Source: Nitrospirota bacterium (lineage in GTDB: Bacteria > Nitrospirota > Nitrospiria > JACQCE01). Taken from it: 33,989 bases of DNA. The translations under genes and the position numbers were made by a program. Positions 23,565 through 26,671 of the stretch are shown here, one piece after another. The stretch is from positions 1 to 33,989 of the forward strand of contig JACQCE010000059.1 in assembly GCA_016201765.1 (NCBI GenBank), written 5' to 3'. The stretch's first letter is position 1. Every line of letters starts with the position of its first letter. The notes beneath the pieces were generated by a model, which saw nothing but the letters and a program-made list of their open reading frames with translations, ran no database searches and was not told the DNA's origin.

Positions 23565-23571
23565 GTTTCAG

Positions 23572-23706
23572 GGTACTCACATCGGATAGTATCGTTCATT
23601 TCGTTGGGGTAAAGGTACGAACATCGGACATGACCCCTCACGTTCGTTCGGGGTTTGGGGTACTAAAATCGGACGTTACTTCTCACATTCGTTCGAAGTA
23701 AATGGG
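23572..23706 (+). repeat. three imperfect tandem repeats with covarying hairpins
   Basis: Three units of about 42-48 bases each start GGTAC and contain ATCGGA then TTCGTT (23572, 23614, 23659). In unit 2, ACCCC (23633-23637) pairs with GGGGT (23650-23654). In unit 3, TTACTTC (23676-23682) pairs with GAAGTAA (23695-23701). Both enclose a 12-base loop, TCACGTTCGTTC or TCACATTCGTTC. Stem bases change on both sides together, so pairing is conserved. Unit 1 has lost the stem. The last hairpin ends just before the HD-GYP ribosome-binding site. Confidence 0.75.
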
Positions 23707-23715
23707 GGTTGGTGA

Positions 23716-26671
<2,956 letters not shown>

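Follow-up and report, generated by a model that had tools for sequence, protein, structure and literature searches.

The array upstream of the HD-GYP gene

The window (the whole stretch of DNA that was analysed, 33,989 nucleotides in length) carries a gene for a response regulator with receiver, GAF and HD-GYP domains, preceded by an array of three repeat units (Table 1). The last unit ends 11 nt before the ATG of this gene. A sequence-only reading of the window had described two tandem units, the stems of which differ by paired changes, together with a third, upstream unit without a stem; the sequences and coordinates of the pair, with about 45 nt per unit, are correct, and the upstream unit is confirmed as a degenerate copy. 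A conserved 18-nt 5′ flank, GGTACNAAMATCGGACAT, had been overlooked and belongs to the unit. The surroundings of the array showed no promoter-like site.

Table 1. Features of the array (positions in the window) and copies of a related subfamily (positions in other loci of the same genome).
Feature	Positions	Strand	Sequence or description	Support
Degenerate unit 1	23571–23612	+	Flank GGTACTCACATCGGAT retained, stem gone	Covariance-model score 20.9 bits, E 0.0012; alignment
Unit 2	23613–23657	+	Flank GGTACGAACATCGGACAT	62.1 bits, E 2.5e-15
Stem of unit 2	23633–23637 / 23650–23654	+	ACCCC/GGGGT, encloses TC-AC-GTTC-GT-TC	
Loop sequence	23638–23649	+	TCACGTTCGTTC	
Unit 3	23658–23704	+	Flank GGTACTAAAATCGGACG	70.6 bits, E 7.4e-18
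Stem of unit 3	23676–23682 / 23695–23701	+	TTACTTC/GAAGTAA, encloses TC-AC-ATTC-GT-TC	
Loop sequence	23683–23694	+	TCACATTCGTTC	
Response regulator receiver-GAF-HD-GYP gene	23716–25218	+	500 amino acids	Pfam Response_reg 4e-29, HD_5 2e-43, GAF_2 9e-11
Subfamily near tRNA genes	L073 70–140, 620–660, 900–970, 1435; L062 8970–9113; L068 8221, 9282	minus (L068)		

Unit architecture and structural constraint

The unit opens with GGTACNAAMATCGGACAT; then come a 5-bp stem that covaries, a UC/UC internal loop that is constant, a 2-bp helix, also covarying, with its loop, and GTAAAGG. The consensus of the covariance model R1, which was built from an alignment of 21 units, runs GGTACNAAMATCGGACATN, 5-bp stem, UC, RC, apical segment (some 3–7 nt, or more), GY, UC, the second arm of the stem on the 3′ side and TAAAGG. 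What had been read as a 12-base loop is correct as sequence, but the inner RC/GY helix covaries (A-U in 24, G-C in ten and G-U in two of 36 units), and this exchange of A-U for G-C resolves the segment into the UC/UC internal loop, a 2-bp helix and a short apical loop.

Among 41 distinct aligned copies, 90.3% of the alignment cells are paired, compared with 77.8% in shuffles, and 64 cells are changed on both sides, compared with 20.1; neither value is reached in any of 500 shuffles. The covariation of the aligned copies is 0.438 (0.208 shuffled), and every slid control falls far below the true alignment. Mutual information is significant in five of the seven pairs (permutation p ≤ 0.006; 36 distinct hand-curated units). 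The paired changes reflect constraint on a folded single strand, and to this extent the earlier interpretation is supported. The folding energies of the single sequences are no better than those of shuffles (z of 0.18 and −0.36), so that the case for structure is carried by the paired changes. As a strand-specific test for RNA, G-U pairs were counted against A-C mismatches in the 36 curated units; the excess is not significant (10 versus 6, p = 0.45), so that the sequences do not discriminate between RNA and single-stranded DNA.

Copy number and spread within the genome

A pattern search of the same genome returned 18 matches, compared with none for the reversed control. With R1, this 1.96-Mb draft (86% complete) yielded 42 units at E < 1e-4, a count that rises to 45 at E < 0.003; half of the 42 (21 units) had been used in building the model and the other 21 had not. 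The repeat is thus a family of about 45 copies in one Nitrospirae genome. An Rfam scan gave no match, bearing out the earlier statement that no recognised riboswitch class is present. Head-to-tail tandems are frequent, with a spacing of 44–47 bp; contig C53 has four units in this arrangement, the last three being nearly identical 44-bp copies. Every array that we saw is head-to-tail, and no inverted dimers were seen. As the generic pattern CTCGC-N-GCTCG shows no enrichment relative to its control, the short core by itself is uninformative in this GC-rich genome.

A related subfamily, in which AAMATCATG is combined with the UC/UC hairpin and the GGTAC...GGAC block is lacking, lies near tRNA genes (Table 1); several of its copies are directly followed by a hairpin with an A/T-rich stem that resembles a bidirectional terminator. 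A further variant has CTCATCTYCGATTCG followed by a common tail similar to GCAGATGGACTTTTTCAACARCCTGCTA (L061 9583–9629, L066 9207–9254 and L069 9024–9070), which suggests a composite of the repeat with the end of another mobile element.

Neighbouring genes and orientation

Gene context was taken from codon-based gene calls over about 0.5 Mb around the matches. The overlap with a called gene is at most 25 nt for 29 of 33 arrays, in a sample that is 16% intergenic; for the remaining four, the gene start may have been called too far upstream. The genes 3′ of sense copies include gyrA, clpP, hisD, rplR, lon, lgt, hppA, pilT, a divIVA-domain gene and a gene for an asparagine-synthase-like amidotransferase, and they have no common pathway or function. 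The check on whether matches lie upstream of signalling genes thus returned housekeeping genes and no signalling regulon. Between one array and hisD there is an ORF of ∼21 codons (L009, about 2616–2554, minus strand) with AAAGGAG ahead of it; its stop codon overlaps the hisD start (ATGA), a possible case of translational coupling.

Both orientations occur, with some copies antisense, divergent or convergent. Arrays flanked by codirectional genes are sense in 15 cases and antisense in five (p = 0.04); for those no more than 30 nt from a start codon the counts are 11 and one (p = 0.006). These are hand counts with tests picked post hoc and are suggestive only. Many copies lie between the stop codon and the Shine–Dalgarno (SD) sequence inside gene pairs, for example ahead of gyrA and in rplF-rplR. 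The end of a sense unit often merges into the SD sequence (GTAAAGGAG) or into the start codon (GTAAATG): clpP, pilT, divIVA and a VOC gene have AAAGGAG as their SD-like sequence, and the start codons of lgt and of the amidotransferase gene come from AAATG (L064 9482; L065 9443). The hairpin that ends right before a ribosome-binding site, noted at first for the HD-GYP gene, is a frequent arrangement among the copies. The sequence-only reading had set its proposal against ordinary mobile repeats, with copies at random places in either orientation; scatter and both orientations are largely what we find, yet orientation and placement are biased.

Comparison with related genomes

In rplF-rplR a 47-nt element starts right at the rplF stop codon (distance 0) and rplR begins 11 nt after it. 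With the element the gap is thus 58 nt. Same-class relatives with a readable gap mostly have 3–23 nt, although in a few the gap is longer and occupied by other sequence, or no start could be read. The gap would fit the insertion of one unit, in a comparison confined to same-class relatives, none of them close enough for high-identity empty sites. Two genomes from another family of the class have rplF-rplR gaps of about 160–200 nt (L165 and L177, about 1300–1500); these hold similar sequence, possibly a different intercistronic repeat.

Searches of 57 and of 269 same-class genomes with the covariance model gave no convincing copy, the few weak matches being generic CTCACTTCGTTCG hairpins or chance. 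The exact pattern had no match among GTDB species genomes and IMG/VR viral contigs, a collection that may omit very near relatives. The best relative of the HD-GYP gene that was found (L079, Nitrospirae, 43% identity) does not have the element in front of it. Neither this repeat nor any counterpart in Nitrospirota was found described in the literature.

Candidate partners

Four Y1_Tnp genes are present in the same genome and none is flanked by the element, although a RAYT could be missing from a draft that is 86% complete. As these genes are flanked by what appear to be their own terminal repeats and by no copy of the present family, a RAYT was set aside as the mobiliser. The apparent terminal inverted repeats at the RAYT-like genes of L075, L076 and L077 (for example AGGGGACAGGCTACTTTTC) are unrelated to the hairpin family. 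A search of the 86%-complete genome did not find CsrA, the obvious candidate for binding GGA, and a CsrA-regulated leader was likewise set aside.

Interpretation

The array probably represents one local cluster of a non-coding hairpin repeat of REP-like type, which is dispersed in the genome and specific to this Nitrospirae lineage. A new lineage-specific family of this kind, and not a dedicated c-di-GMP switch, is most likely; it is supported by copy number, conserved structure, scatter, an insertion-like fit, tandem copies and a hairpin core held in common with other repeats. On the other side, no transposase is tied to the element, there is no GTAG or CGTC tag and no inverted dimers were seen; head-to-tail arrays are rarely formed by REPs, and the 11:1 sense preference right before start codons is atypical of them. 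The repeat would be non-autonomous and may spread through a single-stranded intermediate, as proposed for REPs. The copying enzyme would recognise the folded hairpin (stem, UC/UC internal loop and RC/GY helix) together with the 5′ flank, and we propose that recognition of the fold in such an intermediate is why structure, and not stem sequence, is kept. Sense copies would settle between a stop codon and an SD sequence, where an AAAGG(AG) or AAATG end can act as SD sequence or start codon; they would be tolerated there and may mildly affect the translation of the next gene or the stability of its mRNA. Copies in operons are presumably co-transcribed, incidentally, with local effects at most.

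The control of the HD-GYP gene that the sequence-only reading proposed is not supported, since the same unit precedes unrelated genes, lies elsewhere antisense or between convergent genes, and is missing before the closest HD-GYP relative found. A riboswitch or c-di-GMP leader specific to this gene would account for the position immediately upstream of the ribosome-binding site, but it is contradicted by ∼45 copies before unrelated genes with no conserved link to one gene or pathway; the hairpin is also a simple one of 5–7 bp without a complex aptamer-like core, there is no Rfam match, and we regard this explanation as extremely improbable. Tandem operator sites, with a transcription factor recognising palindromic DNA, would suit the 44–47 bp spacing and the conserved GGTAC...ATCGGACAT block. 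An operator would, however, need conserved arm sequence, whereas the arms show compensatory changes; within gene pairs (ahead of gyrA, in rplF-rplR) many copies occupy the space from stop codon to SD sequence and not promoters, nor was a promoter-like site found near the array, which makes operators very unlikely.

The main rival is a functional RNA module of the 5′-UTR: portable tandem hairpins by the SD sequence that set the translation, processing or stability of the mRNA of downstream cistrons, possibly read by a protein through the UC/UC internal loop and the AUCGGACAU flank. Its main positive sign is the orientation bias (15:5 between codirectional genes and 11:1 near start codons), alongside the unit ends that serve as SD-like sequence or start codon and the compensatory changes. 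We nevertheless hold it to be unlikely, as the targets share no function, antisense, divergent and convergent copies exist, the G-U count gives no strand or RNA signature and CsrA was not found. A repeat family turned portable translation-initiation module, its sense copies giving housekeeping operon genes an SD sequence or start codon and an adjacent stem, seems quite unlikely; if this were true, a mobile hairpin would have rewired many 5′-UTRs of one genome at once. For practice, a leader hairpin with convincing covariation may turn out to be a dispersed repeat, and a whole-genome covariance search should come before any riboswitch claim.

Comparison with known repeat families

The family has the general features of REPs, being a short hairpin that is multi-copy, dispersed and extragenic, with paired changes that preserve the stem. 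Alternative complementary stem residues have been reported for REPs, as has a position next to stop codons, close to where the ORF upstream has its 3′ end (PMC3733652). The GTAG REPs and REPINs, such as the E. coli REP and GTAG-3, likewise combine paired stem changes with dispersed intergenic copies, and their hairpin also has unpaired di- or trinucleotides that separate the stem from a loop with complementary GC termini; for GTAG-3, unpaired dinucleotides have been reported in this place (PMC3733652). The present unit differs in that its conserved flank is GGTACNAAMATCGGACAT and not a GTAG tag; GTAG REPs are mobilised by RAYTs, whereas here the element flanks none of the four Y1_Tnp genes. 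CsrA sites and riboswitches resemble it in having a hairpin near the SD sequence with an exposed GGA, but the present copies are dispersed before unrelated genes, also in antisense, and are without an Rfam match.

The closest likeness is to the CGTC/TGTC-tagged REPs, which comprise CGTC-1 to CGTC-4, dRS3 in Neisseria and RPE-4 and RPE-6 in Rickettsia (Di Nocera et al., 2013; PMC3733652). These are also short, imperfect, intergenic hairpins in many copies, with alternative stem residues and no dedicated transposase. Repeats in some other Nitrospirota have an identical hairpin core (C-TC-RC-TTC-GY-TC-G, including the C-TC-AC-TTC-GT-TC-G form) in a different flank, for example AGATTC, CTCACTTCGTTCG, GAATGACR. 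The 13-mer core is enriched over its reversed control, with 34 exact matches versus none in one other Nitrospirota genome. These repeats, seen as ATTC, CTCACTTCGTTCG, GAATGACR in L195–L204 and L210–L214, end in GACA or GACG, which is TGTC or CGTC on the opposite strand, as in the published CGTC-tagged REPs. The present stem is instead followed by TAAAGG or TAAATG and not by GACR, so that the tag is lacking, and the unit carries its 18-nt conserved 5′ flank and TAAAGG end. Head-to-head dimers predominate in the CGTC REPs and head-to-tail dimers are negligible, with no dedicated transposase (PMC3733652), whereas the present arrays are head-to-tail with a sense bias before start codons. A hairpin core in common with the CGTC-type repeats, but with the tag missing, gives a starting point for learning what is read by the enzyme that mobilises tag-type REPs. 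With the present repeats, the Nitrospirae gain a REP-like family that is tagless, head-to-tail and sense-biased: the shared architecture and dispersal place these repeats with REPs, and the lack of a tag, the head-to-tail order and the sense bias make them a REP-like variant that belongs neither to the GTAG nor to the CGTC family.
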